A stretch of 33,924 nt of DNA from an uncultured Ignavibacteriales bacterium (GTDB lineage Bacteria; Bacteroidota; Ignavibacteria; Ignavibacteriales; Ignavibacteriaceae), in NCBI GenBank assembly GCA_903929035.1, contig CAIYTF010000190.1, positions 1 through 33,924 of the forward strand. The letters run 5' to 3'. This document shows positions 3,989-33,924 of this stretch, piece by piece. A program made the position numbers and the translations under genes. Within the stretch, counting starts at the first letter, position 1. Each line of letters begins with the position of its first letter. The notes under the pieces were generated by a model. The model searched no databases. It was given only the letters and a program-made list of their open reading frames with translations, and had not been told where the DNA came from.

Positions 3989-4052
3989 ATTATTTCTAAA
4001 GTTTTCTAATAAAATATTCGCGAGAAAAATTTCTCACCCTCTAACCGGTTAC

Positions 4053-4149
4053 TAAGTCCTTGTAAAGAAATAACATTTACATCTTCTAAATCAAACTTTC
4101 GCGGTCTTCGCGTGAGAAAGTGTTAATGTTATTTCTGAACGAGTCCTAA
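4053..4149 (-). repeat. 97-bp dispersed repeat, copy 1 (at menH 3' end)
   Basis: Read on the minus strand this is the same 97-bp unit found at 12021-12117 and 22851-22947. It starts TTAGGACTCGTTCAGAAATAAC-like and ends in the imperfect inverse of that sequence (about 16 of 22 positions match; the inner GAAATAAC is exact). A CGCG-AAGAC-CGCG mini-hairpin sits in the middle. This copy overlaps the last 21 bases of the menH reading frame and supplies its last six codons and stop. It lies inside the men operon, between menH and menB. Confidence 0.85.
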
Positions 4150-4968
4150 ATCGTTAATAAAGCCAACAATTAGTTTAGCAAATTGTTCGGGTTTTTCAAT
4201 GTGGGTATTGTGACCGGCCGCTTCAATGATATGGCATTTCGCGGAAGGAAAAATGTCTATCATTATGTTCTGTATTGCACGATATTTTTCATCTTCTGAA
4301 CCCGCGATAAGCATAACCGGTATTTCAACATTTGTTATATCATTCCATAAATGGGGCATTGCTCCTGTGCCAAAAACTGTCAGTGAATTAATTAAACCGG
4401 CAGGTGAGCTATTAAGTTTTTCATTTCGAATCCATTCAATTGTTTCGTAAGGTAAATTTTGTTGTGTCTTGAATATACTTCGAGTAAGCCAATAATCGGT
4501 GAATGTTTCTATACCGCCCGCTTGGATTAAAGAGCAAACTAATTCGTCAGCCAAAACACGTTTATTTCTTTCTTTTCGGTCTTCAATTCCCGGGGACCCG
4601 CTCTCGATAATTAGTCCTACAAGCTTTCGCGGGAAACGGCACGCGAATGAAAGCGCGTATCTTCCGCCCATTGAATATCCTAATAAAATATTATTTTTAT
4701 ATTTAAATGACTCAATTATTTCCGCGAGAAGTTCAGATGTAAAGTCAGCGGTGTAGCAATCAGGGTTTTCGGGACTATCACTTTCGCCAAATCCGGGTAA
4801 GTCGATGCTGATAATATCGAAACCCTGCATTGCAGTTGGGAAAGGGAATTTCCATTCTTTCTTAGAGCCTGCAAAACCGTGTATGCAAAAGAGGGCAGTC
4901 CGCTTCGTGTTACCGGAGGATTGAACCGCAAGTGAAATTAATAAGCCTGTACTTGATTTAAAAATCAT
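4129..4968 (-). CDS. menH: Alpha/beta hydrolase, probable SHCHC synthase (MenH)
   Basis: A 279-residue alpha/beta-hydrolase. The oxyanion region is IHGFAGSKKEW (29-39), followed by SIDLPGFGESD (54-64). The nucleophile elbow is GYSMGGR with Ser99 and Arg103, the acid is Asp226 (AGSEDE) and the base His253 (AAGHNTHIEKP). The ESGSPGIEDRKERNKR stretch (122-137) and W160 resemble the cap residues of MenH, which eliminates pyruvate from SEPHCHC. The men-gene context supports MenH, although a generic hydrolase cannot be excluded. It overlaps the upstream M28 gene by 4 bp (ATGA). Its last six codons (LGLVQK) and the TAA come from the end of a 97-bp repeat, so the native C-terminus has been replaced. 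Confidence 0.8.
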   Translation of the reverse strand: MIFKSSTGLLISLAVQSSGNTKRTALFCIHGFAGSKKEWKFPFPTAMQGFDIISIDLPGFGESDSPENPDCYTADFTSELLAEIIESFKYKNNILLGYSMGGRYALSFACRFPRKLVGLIIESGSPGIEDRKERNKRVLADELVCSLIQAGGIETFTDYWLTRSIFKTQQNLPYETIEWIRNEKLNSSPAGLINSLTVFGTGAMPHLWNDITNVEIPVMLIAGSEDEKYRAIQNIMIDIFPSAKCHIIEAAGHNTHIEKPEQFAKLIVGFINDLGLVQK

Positions 4969-12000: not shown

Positions 12001-12020
12001 CCATTTTTATCCTGATTTGC

Positions 12021-12117
12021 TTAGGACTCGTTCAGAAATAACATTAACACTTTCTCACGCGAAGACCGCGAAGGTTAGATTTAGAAGTTGTAAAGGTTAT
12101 TTCTTTACAAGGACTTA
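12021..12117 (+). repeat. 97-bp dispersed repeat, copy 2
   Basis: The second copy of the unit at 4053-4149 is nearly identical over its full 97 bp to the reverse complement of copy 1. It starts TTAGGACTCG and ends AAGGACTTA. The inner inverted ends GAAATAAC (12034-12041) and GTTATTTC (12097-12104) can pair. It lies about 90 bp downstream of the cytidylate-kinase-like gene and upstream of the fur promoter, in the 334-bp spacer. The spacer holds no gene. Confidence 0.85.
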
Positions 12118-12207
12118 ACGTGATTTATTAATCTCTCATTTCGGATTCCCCCGATAGAATTGGGACAAGGCTCAACTAATGGAGCTATATTTAAATCCTA
12201 TTTTTCA

Positions 12208-22836: not shown

Positions 22837-22850
22837 ATGGAATGGAACAC

Positions 22851-22947
22851 TTAGGACTCGTTCAGAAATAACAACAACACTTTCTCATACGAAGATCGCG
22901 AAGGTTAAATTTAGAAGTTGTAAAGGTTATTTCTTTAGAAGGATTTA
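22851..22947 (+). repeat. 97-bp dispersed repeat, copy 3
   Basis: The third copy of the unit at 4053-4149 and 12021-12117 is the same length, with roughly ten substitutions relative to copy 2 (for example ATTAAC to ACAACA near the left end and ACTTA to ATTTA at the right end). It begins 15 bp after the stop of the exonuclease/GIY-YIG gene. Its older-looking substitutions suggest independent decay. The rest of the spacer to 23075 holds nothing recognisable. Confidence 0.85.
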
Positions 22948-23075
22948 ATGCTTAATTGCCGCATCCCATCAGCCGCGTTTCAGAATATTTTACAAATTGC
23001 CACACCCATCAGCATTAACAATTGATCCCCAATTCACTATATTTCAAATATGAAAAATAAAGTTTCTGTATTAAA

Positions 23076-23207
23076 ATGAAAACCCCAAAAGATATCCCTT
23101 ACGGCACTTCCGATTTCAGTAGCCTGATTCTAGAAAAAATGTATTATGTCGATAGGACGAATTATATTGAAAGAATTAGAATAATGAATGAACTTGTAAG
23201 AGCCTGA
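23076..23207 (+). pseudogene. Truncated AAA-ATPase-like / PD-(D/E)XK nuclease family gene (N-terminal 43 codons)
   Basis: A 43-codon ORF starting MKTPKDIPYGTSDFSSLI and continuing EKMYYVDRTNYIERI looks like the N-terminus of the AAA-ATPase-like/DUF1703 proteins (PF09820 type), which begin with a PYGxxDFxxLxxxxYYVDKTxxIE pattern and run to about 500 residues. Here it stops after 43 codons. Its TGA overlaps the ATG of the helicase gene (TGATG). It may survive only as a short leader ORF for uvrD. Confidence 0.6.
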
Positions 23208-25198
23208 TGGACAAAAAATATAAACTAACCCGACTAACAAGCGAAGCACTCGAAAACGTGCAGCCTCTCAAGGGTAAATTTACCATAGATTATGAAAACC
23301 TTCTGAACCCCGCTCAATTGGAGGCGGTCAAGGCGGTTGACGGCGCATATCTTATTATTGCCGGTGCAGGCACCGGTAAAACCCGAACACTGATATATCG
23401 CCTTGCCCGCCTTATAGAGTCGGGATATGATCCGCGGTCTATTCTATTGCTCACGTTCACTCGCAAGTCTGCAAAAGAAATGCTGAACAGGGCAGCTTTG
23501 CTGCTTGATAACAGGTGTGATAATGTCAATGGCGGTACATTTCATTCTTTCGCCAATACAATTTTGCGTAAGCACGCTAAGGCAATGGGCTTTCTTACTT
23601 CGTTTACCATACTTGACCAAGGTGATAGTGAAGATGTTATAAATCTTATTCGCGCTCAAACCGACCCTGTTAAAAAAAAGCGGCGGTTTCCAACGAAATC
23701 AACCCTCCAAAAAATATACAGCCTGTCTGTTAATACCGGCAAAAATATCAACGATATTCTCGGCAAGGATTATCCGCACTTCATCGAAGAGATAGATGAA
23801 ATAAAAAACATTTTTGCAAAATTCAAGACTTACAAAAAAGAAAACAGTTTAGTTGATTATGACGATTTACTGATTCACTCGCGCGATTTTTTGCTCTCTA
23901 ATACTCCGGATTCATTGAGCGTGTTAAATTCTATCAGATTTGTAATGGTTGACGAATATCAGGATACGAATCATTTGCAGTCTCAGATAGTGAAAGCTCT
24001 CTGCCAATTAAAACAAAATATAATGGTGGTTGGTGATGACGCGCAGTCAATATATTCTTTCCGCGGTGCAAATTTTGAGAACATAATGAAGTTCCCCGAT
24101 ATATACCCGGATGTGAAAATAATCAAGCTGGAAGAAAACTATCGCAGCACACCGCAAATATTGAATGTTGCTAACCGCATCTATGAAGGCGCGATTCAAA
24201 AATACGACAAGGTTCTATACACTTCAAATGCAGGCGGTGAATTACCCGCTATACTTGCCGCTGCAACCGTGCAACTCCAATCGGCATTCATTGTTGATAA
24301 GGTTTTAGACCTTCACGAAGGGGGCACGCCTCTTTCGGAAATTGCAGTGCTGTTCCGTTCCTCTTTTTTCTCGTTTGATTTGGAAATTGCTCTGACAAAA
24401 GCGAATATCCCGTTTCAAAAGTTCGGCGGGATGAAATTTGTTGAAACTGCCCATATTAAAGACATTCTTGCTATACTCCGTATATCTCTTAACCCGCGTG
24501 ACGTGGTGTGCTGGTTCAGGGTTCTTATGCTGCACGAAGGAATAGGACCAAAGACAGCAGAGAAGATATTAACCGCGATTACTGAAGGCAAAATATCACT
24601 GCAGAATAAGCCTGATTCGTTTAATTCAAAATTGGTGAGTGACAAAGTGTTTCCGCTCTTTCAGCTGTTATATACTTTGCGAACGAGAGAACTCTCGATA
24701 CGCGATAGAGTAGTGCTTACAGTGGAATATTATTATCCTATCTTCAAAATAAAATACGATGATTTCAATAAACGAAAAAAAGATTTGGATATTTTTCTAA
24801 ATATCGCTGCAAACTATCGTTCGTTAGAAAGTCTTATTTCCGATATGGCAATTGAACCGCCGATGGATTCAGTTACTGATTTAGGCGAAGAGGATAAACA
24901 AGATGATTATTTAACCCTTTCAACTATTCACTCTGCAAAGGGATTAGAATGGCATTCGGTATTTATCATTCATACTGTTGACGGTTTTTTTCCGTCAAAC
25001 CGTTCTGCAGAATCACTTGAATCACTTGATGAGGAACGGCGGTTACTTTATGTAGCGGCAACACGAGCGAAACAAAATTTATATGTCACCTATCCGATGA
25101 ATATCTTCGACCGCGAAACCGGCACGACACTTTCTAAACCATCGCGCTTTTTAAGCGGTGTTACGCCTGATATTGCAGATGGATGGCTGCTTGATTGA
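23207..25198 (+). CDS. UvrD/PcrA-like SF1A DNA helicase
   Basis: 663 residues with the full set of superfamily 1A motifs: Q motif LNPAQLEAV (33-41), Walker A AGAGTGKT (52-59), LLTFTRKSAKEM (81-92), GTFHSF (110-115), Walker B VDEYQDTN (248-255), GDDAQSIYSFRGA (276-288), ENYRST (310-315), then TIHSAKGLEWHSVFI and EERRLLYVAATRAK near the C-terminus. It is somewhat shorter than E. coli UvrD (720). It should unwind DNA 3'-5' in repair or act as an anti-recombinase. The start overlaps the stop of the preceding remnant ORF. Its last 102 bp occur again at 27394-27495 in opposite orientation. Confidence 0.93.
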   Translation: MDKKYKLTRLTSEALENVQPLKGKFTIDYENLLNPAQLEAVKAVDGAYLIIAGAGTGKTRTLIYRLARLIESGYDPRSILLLTFTRKSAKEMLNRAALLLDNRCDNVNGGTFHSFANTILRKHAKAMGFLTSFTILDQGDSEDVINLIRAQTDPVKKKRRFPTKSTLQKIYSLSVNTGKNINDILGKDYPHFIEEIDEIKNIFAKFKTYKKENSLVDYDDLLIHSRDFLLSNTPDSLSVLNSIRFVMVDEYQDTNHLQSQIVKALCQLKQNIMVVGDDAQSIYSFRGANFENIMKFPDIYPDVKIIKLEENYRSTPQILNVANRIYEGAIQKYDKVLYTSNAGGELPAILAAATVQLQSAFIVDKVLDLHEGGTPLSEIAVLFRSSFFSFDLEIALTKANIPFQKFGGMKFVETAHIKDILAILRISLNPRDVVCWFRVLMLHEGIGPKTAEKILTAITEGKISLQNKPDSFNSKLVSDKVFPLFQLLYTLRTRELSIRDRVVLTVEYYYPIFKIKYDDFNKRKKDLDIFLNIAANYRSLESLISDMAIEPPMDSVTDLGEEDKQDDYLTLSTIHSAKGLEWHSVFIIHTVDGFFPSNRSAESLESLDEERRLLYVAATRAKQNLYVTYPMNIFDRETGTTLSKPSRFLSGVTPDIADGWLLD

Positions 25199-25280
25199 AC
25201 TTTCATTCCATCTAACTTGCCGTAAGTTATTGATATTAAATGGCTTATAAAAGCGATATTTCAACAGGATTTGCGGCTAA

Positions 25281-25508: not shown

Positions 25509-26573
25509 ATGAACACTATATCAGCACTACCTGACTTTCACCCCGCGCTGTGGCAAGAGCCGATTAGCATCGGGAAAGTTTCGTGTACCCTTTGTCCGCG
25601 CTATTGTGAATTGGGTGCAGGTCAGAATGGTTTTTGTTACGTGAGAAAAAACATTGACGGGAAACTCTATTCTCTCGCTTATGGAAAACCAACCGGATTT
25701 GCTGTTGACCCGATTGAGAAGAAACCGCTCAATCATTTTTTGCCCGGCTCTTCTATTTTAAGTTTCGGAACCGCTGGTTGTAATCTCGGCTGCAAATTCT
25801 GCCAAAATTGGTCAATGAGTAAAGCGAAAATTGACAGTGTATTATCATTGAATTGCTCGCCCGAAGATGTGATACAAATGGCAAAAGGAAATGATACACC
25901 GTCAATTGCTTTCACCTATAATGACCCTGTTATATTTGGCGAGTACGTTATCGACATCTCGCGGCTGGCACGGGAGGAACAAATAAATTCGGTTATGGTC
26001 ACTGCCGGTTATATAGATAAGCACGCGCGACAGGATGTCTTCAAATATATTGATGCTGCAAATGTTGATTTAAAAGCATTTTCTGAATCGTTTTATCATA
26101 ATCTTACATCCGCGCACCTGCAAGATGTGCTGGATACACTATTATGGCTGCGGCACGATACCAATATTTGGCTCGAAATTACCACTCTGCTAATTCCCGG
26201 TGAAAACGATTCGGAAGATGAAACAAAAGCAATGTGCGATTGGGTGTTAGAAAATTTGGGTGATTGTATTCCGCTGCACTTCACTGCATTTCATCCGGAT
26301 TTTAAAATGACCAACAAACAATTAACCCCTACTAAAACCATACTGCACGCGAGAGAACTCGCGCTTTCCGCGGGCATTAAATATTGTTATGTTGGAAATA
26401 TCATTGACCGTAAAGGACAAACCACTTTCTGTCCGCGATGCGACAGTAAACTGATAGAACGAAATTGGCACGGTGTTGCCGGCAATAAAATGACCGGTGA
26501 CAAGTGCCCGAAATGCGGCACGGTTATCGCCGGCAAATTTAATAAATATAGCAGCAACATTATCCCTGATTAG
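25509..26573 (+). CDS. amrS: AmmeMemoRadiSam system radical SAM enzyme
   Basis: A 354-residue radical SAM protein. The 4Fe-4S motif is CNLGCKFC (C91, C95, C98), preceded by GTAG and followed by QNW as in the AmrS/PflA-like branch. The N-terminus has a further cysteine set (C26, C29, C33, C43 in SCTLCPRYCELGAGQNGFC), and the C-terminus a rubredoxin-like zinc ribbon (FCPRCDS ... DKCPKCGTV). This arrangement defines the AmmeMemoRadiSam radical SAM family. Its usual partners, an AMMECR1 domain protein and a Memo-like protein, are not in the window. The chemistry is still poorly defined. Its stop overlaps the convergent DUF4905-like gene by 4 bp (shared TTAG). Confidence 0.9.
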   Translation: MNTISALPDFHPALWQEPISIGKVSCTLCPRYCELGAGQNGFCYVRKNIDGKLYSLAYGKPTGFAVDPIEKKPLNHFLPGSSILSFGTAGCNLGCKFCQNWSMSKAKIDSVLSLNCSPEDVIQMAKGNDTPSIAFTYNDPVIFGEYVIDISRLAREEQINSVMVTAGYIDKHARQDVFKYIDAANVDLKAFSESFYHNLTSAHLQDVLDTLLWLRHDTNIWLEITTLLIPGENDSEDETKAMCDWVLENLGDCIPLHFTAFHPDFKMTNKQLTPTKTILHARELALSAGIKYCYVGNIIDRKGQTTFCPRCDSKLIERNWHGVAGNKMTGDKCPKCGTVIAGKFNKYSSNIIPD

Positions 26574-27409
26574 GGCGCGTTCACAAATTCTTTGAGTTTA
26601 TAGACGATAATATCACTCTTGTTTTTGATAGTTATCAAATATCCGGAAAAGACAAAAAAAGAATCAAACAGAAAAGTATTTTGATTTTCATTTATAGTTT
26701 CATTAAATATTATATTTCCGGTTGAAATATCAACTCCTCGAAGCCATTGATTATGCAGACCTGTGCTTTCCGTTTCCTGAAATATATAAAAGAAAGTGCC
26801 GTTATAAGAAAGAGTTTCCACAATGGTTTGACCCTGCTTCAAAAGAGTGGAGAGAAGCATATCAGATTCAGGCAAAACATTCGCGGTATAAGCATTGGGA
26901 AACTCGTATCGAGAATAGTCCGCGTGCGCCTGAGCGATGTATCGCCGTTGGTTAACGGATTCAGCAGCTTCAATTTCGCCAAGTAATTCTCCGGTAAGTT
27001 TATCCACTGAATAAAATTTAAGGCTTTCAAACTCTTGCTTTTGACAGACTAAATTATTTTGTTCGCCAAACGAGAAAACATAATCAGGGTGAGACCAGAT
27101 AAATTTTCCTTTGGAAACAGAATAAGCATATATTCCTTGGTGCCAAGGCATATCTGGCTTGCGATAGCCGTGGAAATACACGATGTCTCCATCGAATAAT
27201 TCTACACCAGCCCAGAATTTATTGACCGGCTGCAAATCCGAAAACATCTTTTTACCTGAAGCCAATTGATAACATTGAAAAAAAACTTCGCGATTAGCTA
27301 AATCGCGTTCTTCGATGAGAAGAAGAGATTCGTTATTCAGTAAAACACGCCACGCCGTTCTATTCTTAGAATGACGGAATATTTTTTTTATTTTCAATTC
27401 AGCAGCCAT
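26570..27409 (-). CDS. DUF4905-like protein of unknown function
   Basis: 279 residues, no signal peptide and no membrane helix. Repeated short beta-rich segments (WRVLLNNESLLLIEERD, WAGVELFDGDIVYFHGYRKP, GIYAYSVSKGKFIWSHPDY, SVDKLTGELLGEI, GVDISTGNIIFNE) suggest a WD/PQQ-like beta-propeller. The HGYxxPxxPWHxGI stretch resembles DUF4905 proteins of Bacteroidota; the assignment is from memory. No function is proposed. The only usable ATG (27407-27409) lies inside a duplicated fragment of the uvrD 3' end: the first five codons overlap that fragment in another frame, and GAGGG abuts the ATG. The same ATGGCTGCT sits at the end of the intact uvrD, where no such gene follows. Confidence 0.7.
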   Translation of the reverse strand: MAAELKIKKIFRHSKNRTAWRVLLNNESLLLIEERDLANREVFFQCYQLASGKKMFSDLQPVNKFWAGVELFDGDIVYFHGYRKPDMPWHQGIYAYSVSKGKFIWSHPDYVFSFGEQNNLVCQKQEFESLKFYSVDKLTGELLGEIEAAESVNQRRYIAQAHADYSRYEFPNAYTANVLPESDMLLSTLLKQGQTIVETLSYNGTFFYIFQETESTGLHNQWLRGVDISTGNIIFNETINENQNTFLFDSFFVFSGYLITIKNKSDIIVYKLKEFVNAP

Positions 27410-27495
27410 CCCTCTGCAATAGCAGACGTAACACCGCTTAAAAAGCGCGATGGTTTATAAAGGGTCGTGCCGGTTTCGAGATATAAGATATTCAT
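27394..27495 (-). pseudogene. Duplicated 3' fragment of uvrD
   Basis: On the minus strand these 102 bp align without gaps to the last 102 bp of the helicase gene (25097-25198); by my count 91 of 102 bases match, including the TGA. The translation keeps ETGTTL-KPSRFLSGVT and EGWLL. No other part of uvrD is present here. It is joined upstream to a secA-like 5' fragment and contains the start of the DUF4905-like gene. Confidence 0.85.
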
Positions 27496-27566
27496 TTTAC
27501 AGGTTTAAGCGGCTGAATATCTTTCGATTTCTTATCGCCAAATAACATTTTAATAAACTCTAACAT
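27492..27566 (-). pseudogene. secA-like 5' fragment (24 codons)
   Basis: The minus-strand ATG at 27566 opens a 24-codon ORF beginning MLEFIKMLFGDKKSKDI and ending KPVK before a TGA. This is very like the N-terminus of SecA proteins (MLxFIKKxFGxKxxRDxKxLxP). The similarity stops exactly where the uvrD-derived fragment begins; the TGA overlaps that fragment's ATG. No secA gene lies in the window. A coincidental small ORF is the alternative. Confidence 0.5.
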
Positions 27567-27611
27567 TATATGAAAAACTCCGGATTACTATAATTTCTAT
27601 CTTTTAATTAA

Positions 27612-27634
27612 TAAGTCCTTGTTAAAGAAATAAC
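27612..27634 (+). repeat. Solo terminal repeat of the 97-bp element
   Basis: TAAGTCCTTG then TTAAAGAAATAAC matches the right-hand end (inverse orientation) of the 97-bp repeats, with one extra T. The rest of the unit is absent. The nested palindrome begins two bases later, suggesting that one element inserted at, or recombined with, the end of the other. Confidence 0.6.
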
Positions 27635-27635
27635 C

Positions 27636-27906
27636 GTAACTACTCATTCTCCTGAAATCAAGAAAATATACGGTACTGATATTATGTCCCAACGGGACTA
27701 AATTTGAATAACCGTGAGTTGACAACTCACGGGAGAATGATAAAAAGCATCTATGTCCCCGAAGGGGGCAAATTCACGCCGCGTAGTTAGTTCGCCCCCA
27801 TTTCGGGGACGCTATTTGTTTGGGCTTACTTTTCCGTGAGTTAGCACTCACGGTTATTCAAATTTAGTCCCGTTGGTACAAATTCAAGAACAGGCTGAGT
27901 AGTTAC
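27636..27906. mobile_element. 271-bp nested palindromic element, copy A
   Basis: Ends are GTAACTACTCA (27636-27646) and its exact inverse (27896-27906). Inside, a 35-nt arm at 27685-27719 pairs with 27846-27880 with one mismatch. Each arm holds its own small palindrome (GTCCCAACGGGAC at 27686-27698) and a hairpin of CCGTGAGTT/AACTCACGG type (27712-27732, and 27834-27853 on the other side). A G+C-rich centre pairs 27755-27769 with 27794-27810. No ORF is present. It resembles a non-autonomous, transposase-less palindromic element. Its first 77 bp recur at 33848-33924. Confidence 0.75.
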
Positions 27907-33847: not shown

Positions 33848-33924
33848 GTAACTACTCAGTCTCCTGAAATCAAGAAAATATATGGTACGGATATTATGTC
33901 CCAACGGGACTAAATTTGAATAAC
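33848..33924. mobile_element. Nested palindromic element, copy B (cut by window edge)
   Basis: The last 77 bases match 27636-27712 at 74 of 77 positions without gaps and in the same orientation. They include the GTAACTACTCA end and the GTCCCAACGGGAC palindrome. The element continues past the window, so its inner arms cannot be checked. Confidence 0.8.

Follow-up and report, generated by a model that had tools for sequence, protein, structure and literature searches.

The window, a stretch of 33,924 nucleotides from an uncultured Ignavibacteriales bacterium, carries directly in front of a DUF4905 gene a chimera of about 220 bp (minus strand, 27616→27393) that consists of two short ectopic copies, one of the secA 5' end and one of the uvrD 3' end. 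As judged by sequence comparison, this secA'/uvrD' patch is a genuine, lineage-specific rearrangement scar, and the short secA-like and uvrD-like open reading frames at this site are gene fragments, not genes. The locus presents a well-preserved example of a relocated single gene that can be dated, with readable junctions and a native start codon replaced by pieces of two housekeeping genes. The following features of the window are relevant:

23076..23207, plus strand: 5' fragment of a multicopy AAA-ATPase_like (PF09820) gene; its TGA overlaps the ATG of the intact uvrD (TGATG)
23207..25198, plus strand: intact UvrD/Rep-type helicase gene (Pfam UvrD-helicase, UvrD_C), source of the 3' fragment, away from its usual floA-like neighbourhood
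25088..25199, plus strand: donor arm, the last ~110 bp of uvrD with the stop codon (inverted repeat I1, own-genome search)
25509..26573, plus strand: AmrS-like radical SAM gene (Radical_SAM), convergent with DUF4905, 4 bp overlap
26570..27409, minus strand: DUF4905 gene (PF16248, E 8e-22), away from AMMECR1-MEMO
27393..27504, minus strand: uvrD 3'-end copy, an inverted repeat with an open 33-codon mini-ORF from ATG 27495 to TGA 27394
27498..27616, minus strand: secA 5'-end copy with 50 bp of leader, an RBS-like GGAG, ATG 27566, 23 secA codons and a TGA overlapping the uvrD' ATG
27612..27635, no strand assigned: partial terminus of a ~99-bp dispersed repeat (TAAGTCCTTGTAAAGAAATAAC), adjoining the secA side of the patch
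27636..27906, no strand assigned: 271-bp dispersed repeat with the ends GTAACTACTCA and TGAGTAGTTAC, multicopy, frequently located at the ends of contigs

Composition of the patch

Read along the minus strand, the end of a dispersed repeat is followed by the secA leader with its GGAG, secA codons 1-23, the TGA/ATG overlap, the last 33 codons and the stop of uvrD, and DUF4905. In searches of the own genome the secA piece aligned with 92-93 % identity over 119-120 bp to positions 3301-3420 of contig C147, which comprise the 50 bp leader, the RBS-like GGAG and 23 codons of the only full-length secA of this genome. The uvrD piece pairs with the end of the nearby helicase gene as an inverted repeat (25088-25199 with 27393-27504; ungapped extension of 112 nt, 87 %), and its core of 103 bp was found with 89 % identity (E 6e-33 and 2e-31). 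Both sources remain in place, secA and uvrD being intact elsewhere in the genome, and a Pfam search confirmed the DUF4905, UvrD and SecA assignments. A first-pass annotation had described an inverted uvrD 3' end of about 89 % identity, a secA-like 5' end, their overlapping TGA/ATG and a DUF4905 ATG inside the uvrD piece; all of these were recovered, the secA piece proving longer than first seen. A conserved stand-alone small gene (~170-220 bp), named in the same annotation as the finding that would speak against a scar, was ruled out: among 80 family genomes searched, no match in another genome spanned both pieces, the few other matches being the relatives' own secA or uvrD.

The secA side of the patch is bordered by repeats. 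Copies of the ~99-bp repeat lie at 4052-4150, 12020-12118 and 22850-22948, with imperfect inverted ends (TTAAGTCCTTGTAAAGAAATAAC) and dozens of copies in the genome. The 271-bp repeat has about 40 matches in the genome and also occupies 33848-33924 at the end of the window. Capture by a Pack-MITE was rejected, as a second repeat terminus was not present on the DUF4905 side of the patch.

Displacement of DUF4905 and uvrD

DUF4905, UvrD-type helicases and SecA are present in all 31 genomes searched (the own genome and 30 relatives), DUF4905 as a single copy in this genome. DUF4905 directly precedes AMMECR1 and MEMO throughout the relative loci that were read (L010-L028, 19 of 19), the same-genus genome included. 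Its upstream neighbour in the same-genus genome resembles a GlcD-type FAD oxidase, not uvrD; the names GlcD, floA, ProC and ComEC used here were assigned from reading of the sequences, not by Pfam. In our genome AMMECR1-MEMO is situated on contig C3 and, as in the genus-mate, is followed by ProC-like and ComEC-like genes; DUF4905 alone has moved, and a piece of the ~99-bp repeat marks the junction in front of AMMECR1-MEMO. In 14 of 19 relative loci, among them that of the genus-mate, uvrD has a floA-like gene close by; a search of this genome for the floA-like gene, run without a positive control inside this genome, gave no match. AmrS loci fetched from relatives adjoin neither uvrD nor DUF4905 nor secA. 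The neighbourhoods of the relatives differ from those seen here, therefore both uvrD and DUF4905 stand in new surroundings. None of the relatives compared shows an intermediate state, the genus-mate being the only genome of the same genus.

The first-pass annotation had explained the scar by duplication plus inversion of an ancestral uvrD-DUF4905 order. The scar and both copies hold, but the ancestral order is not supported: the two genes are close to each other in none of the 30 relatives. Nor does secA lie near uvrD in the two single-contig relatives.

A new start codon for DUF4905

The in-frame ATG of DUF4905 (27409) falls in the uvrD-derived piece. The native ATG of the relatives aligns with a TTG at 27397, four codons downstream, so that the join with the uvrD piece falls on the former DUF4905 start codon. 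In relatives the gene begins with ATGAAA.. (L010: ATGAAAATAAAA, or close variants), here with TTGAAAATAAAA. Intact uvrD contains the shared ATGGCTGCT out of the uvrD frame and with a TGA immediately after it. Two base changes in the copy (CTTGAT to CTGAAT) abolish this in-frame stop, and only because of them is ATG 27409 usable.

DUF4905 is an intact open reading frame whose product has an amino-acid identity to the protein of the genus-mate of 57 % in the N part and 43 % in the C part, and third codon positions differ most between the two genes; on these grounds the gene probably remains functional. DUF4905 is not mentioned by name in the literature searched. The patch may act as its leader, with the secA ribosome-binding site, a 24-codon ORF, the 33-codon ORF and DUF4905 linked by overlapping stop and start codons. 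A sigma-70 scan of the patch gave weak consensus matches only.

Junctions and divergence of the pieces

The junctions of the patch have putative microhomologies of 4-6 bp (TGAA, ACCTAT and ACTTA). At the secA/uvrD join, where both parents are known, secA and uvrD have ACCTAT in common and in register. At the DUF4905/uvrD join, uvrD GATTGAA passes into DUF4905 AATAAAA with an overlap of TGAA at the old start codon. ACTTA at the third junction lies against the repeat end and includes a 1-nt indel; a conventional insertion of the dispersed repeat could account for this junction. At random junctions in this genome, runs of at least 4, 5 and 6 bp are met with frequencies of 0.021, 0.007 and 0.0023 per junction. 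As a sign of the joining mechanism the microhomologies are suggestive, not proof, because the DUF4905-side parent is a reconstruction and several bases after ACCT at the secA/uvrD join agree poorly with either parent.

From their sources the uvrD copy differs at 11 of 102 and the secA copy at 8 of 119 positions (Fisher p 0.34), a similar divergence that would be compatible with one event. The uvrD genes of our genome and the genus-mate (G000-G001) differ at 58 % of third positions, hence the copying should be younger than that split. Of the ten codons changed in uvrD', eight carry non-synonymous changes, and several of these fall on residues that are conserved in the relatives; the codon-position contrast, based on few sites, is not significant (p 0.35). 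Both mini-ORFs, secA' and uvrD', are still open, which by our reasoning is fairly often expected by chance, given so few changes.

Origin of the patch

From these observations we infer a single event, and consider it reasonably probable that a lineage-specific junction patch was made by repair or template switching after the split from the genus-mate, DUF4905 being joined to the nearby inverted uvrD and then to secA. DUF4905 would have moved away from AMMECR1, and its broken end, cut at the start codon, would have been extended at the new site with two unlinked pieces, either copied or captured: initially the uvrD 3' end, which lies inverted at a distance of 2.2 kb, and next the secA 5' end from elsewhere. 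Joins at 4-6 bp of microhomology would point to template switching or to microhomology end joining. The chain of pieces would terminate at the dispersed repeat, and the uvrD copy would afterwards have drifted without clear amino-acid constraint. MMBIR/FoSTeS-type junctions are template-switch, or microhomology-mediated, templated insertions. The patch resembles them in its short unlinked pieces, one of them nearby and inverted, apparently joined at microhomologies of this length; it differs in that the process is deduced from a single junction that is old and diverged and belongs to the draft genome of a bacterium. The scar belongs to a known general kind and is a readable case with an unsurprising mechanism.

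Exactly the AmrS-DUF4905 segment is flanked by the inverted copies of the uvrD end, as a staggered-break inversion would leave them. Under that explanation uvrD and DUF4905 were joined in this lineage, an inversion of DUF4905-AmrS placed the uvrD 3' end at both ends of the segment, and the far breakpoint had carried secA' beforehand. Drosophila inversions are described as having such inverted duplications at their breakpoints (PMC5080602), and the patch shares with them the inverted copies at both ends of a gene segment, but the required ancestral order is absent from the relatives. With no relative having uvrD beside DUF4905, and with an additional unseen uvrD-DUF4905 fusion and a pre-existing secA fragment to be assumed, we regard such an inversion as unlikely.

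The 6-bp direct repeat at the secA/uvrD join is also what a deletion in a former segmental duplicate would produce, if secA and uvrD copies of greater length formerly stood before DUF4905 and were fused by deletion between the ACCTAT repeats. Bacterial gene fusions born by deletion, in which the start of one gene and the end of another are joined at a microhomology, are documented (PMC12803068). The patch is similar to these fusions in joining a gene start to another gene's end at an apparent microhomology; unlike them, it leaves both source genes intact, and its pieces do not form one reading frame but meet in a TGA/ATG overlap. Two prior duplications at one site would be needed, the single-contig relatives do not have secA next to uvrD, and the genome carries no other trace of larger secA or uvrD copies, which makes a deletion-born fusion distinctly improbable. 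An assembly or binning artefact, conceivable in a draft genome of 222 contigs of which many end in the 271-bp repeat that adjoins the patch, has very little probability: a divergence of 7-13 % separates the two pieces from their only counterparts in the genome, so that they are not simply misplaced own sequence, and the patch is internal to a 34-kb contig, the sequence continuing into DUF4905.

Other gene-end fragments in the genome

The AAA-ATPase_like fragment at 23076-23207 is a second leader-like 5' end of a gene in the window. On contig C105 (L121:10492-11733), an insert of ~1 kb lies between the copies of a 126-bp direct repeat that comprises the 3' end of a reductase-like gene and the initial bases of the gene after it, and the repeated copy of the reductase-like 3' end directly precedes the ATG of the next gene. 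The insert has two small ORFs; a 178-aa protein in it had no Pfam match. Considering the C105 and AAA-ATPase_like fragments, the DUF4905 site is not the only place in this genome where a gene-end fragment precedes a start codon. Low-copy repeat pairs with one side in an ORF of at least 180 aa and the other outside numbered 13 in ~0.90 Mb here, and a single-contig relative gave 1 in 0.80 Mb, the sample from our genome having been taken as stretches and not at random, with some contigs chosen for repeats or AAA-ATPase fragments. Among the 13 pairs, several are transposase-like and one is the template/variable pair of a diversity-generating retroelement; several others are 3' ends of genes. Short gene ends might continually be scattered before displaced genes in this genome and there become working leaders by translational coupling (secA'/uvrD' for DUF4905, the AAA-ATPase 5' end for uvrD), but this is a speculation to which we give little credence.

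The diversity-generating retroelement is located on contig C8 (L132:7777-9592) and consists of an FGE-sulfatase target with a variable 3' end, bAvd, a reverse transcriptase and the template repeat. Nearly all differences between its repeats are at adenines of the coding strand of the template. The differences between the uvrD copies are mixed and not adenine-specific, unlike those of the C8 pair, and a retroelement repeat pair was ruled out for them. Close to this retroelement, C8:7471-7527 shows 82 % identity to a segment of 57 bp downstream of the intact uvrD (25205-25261).
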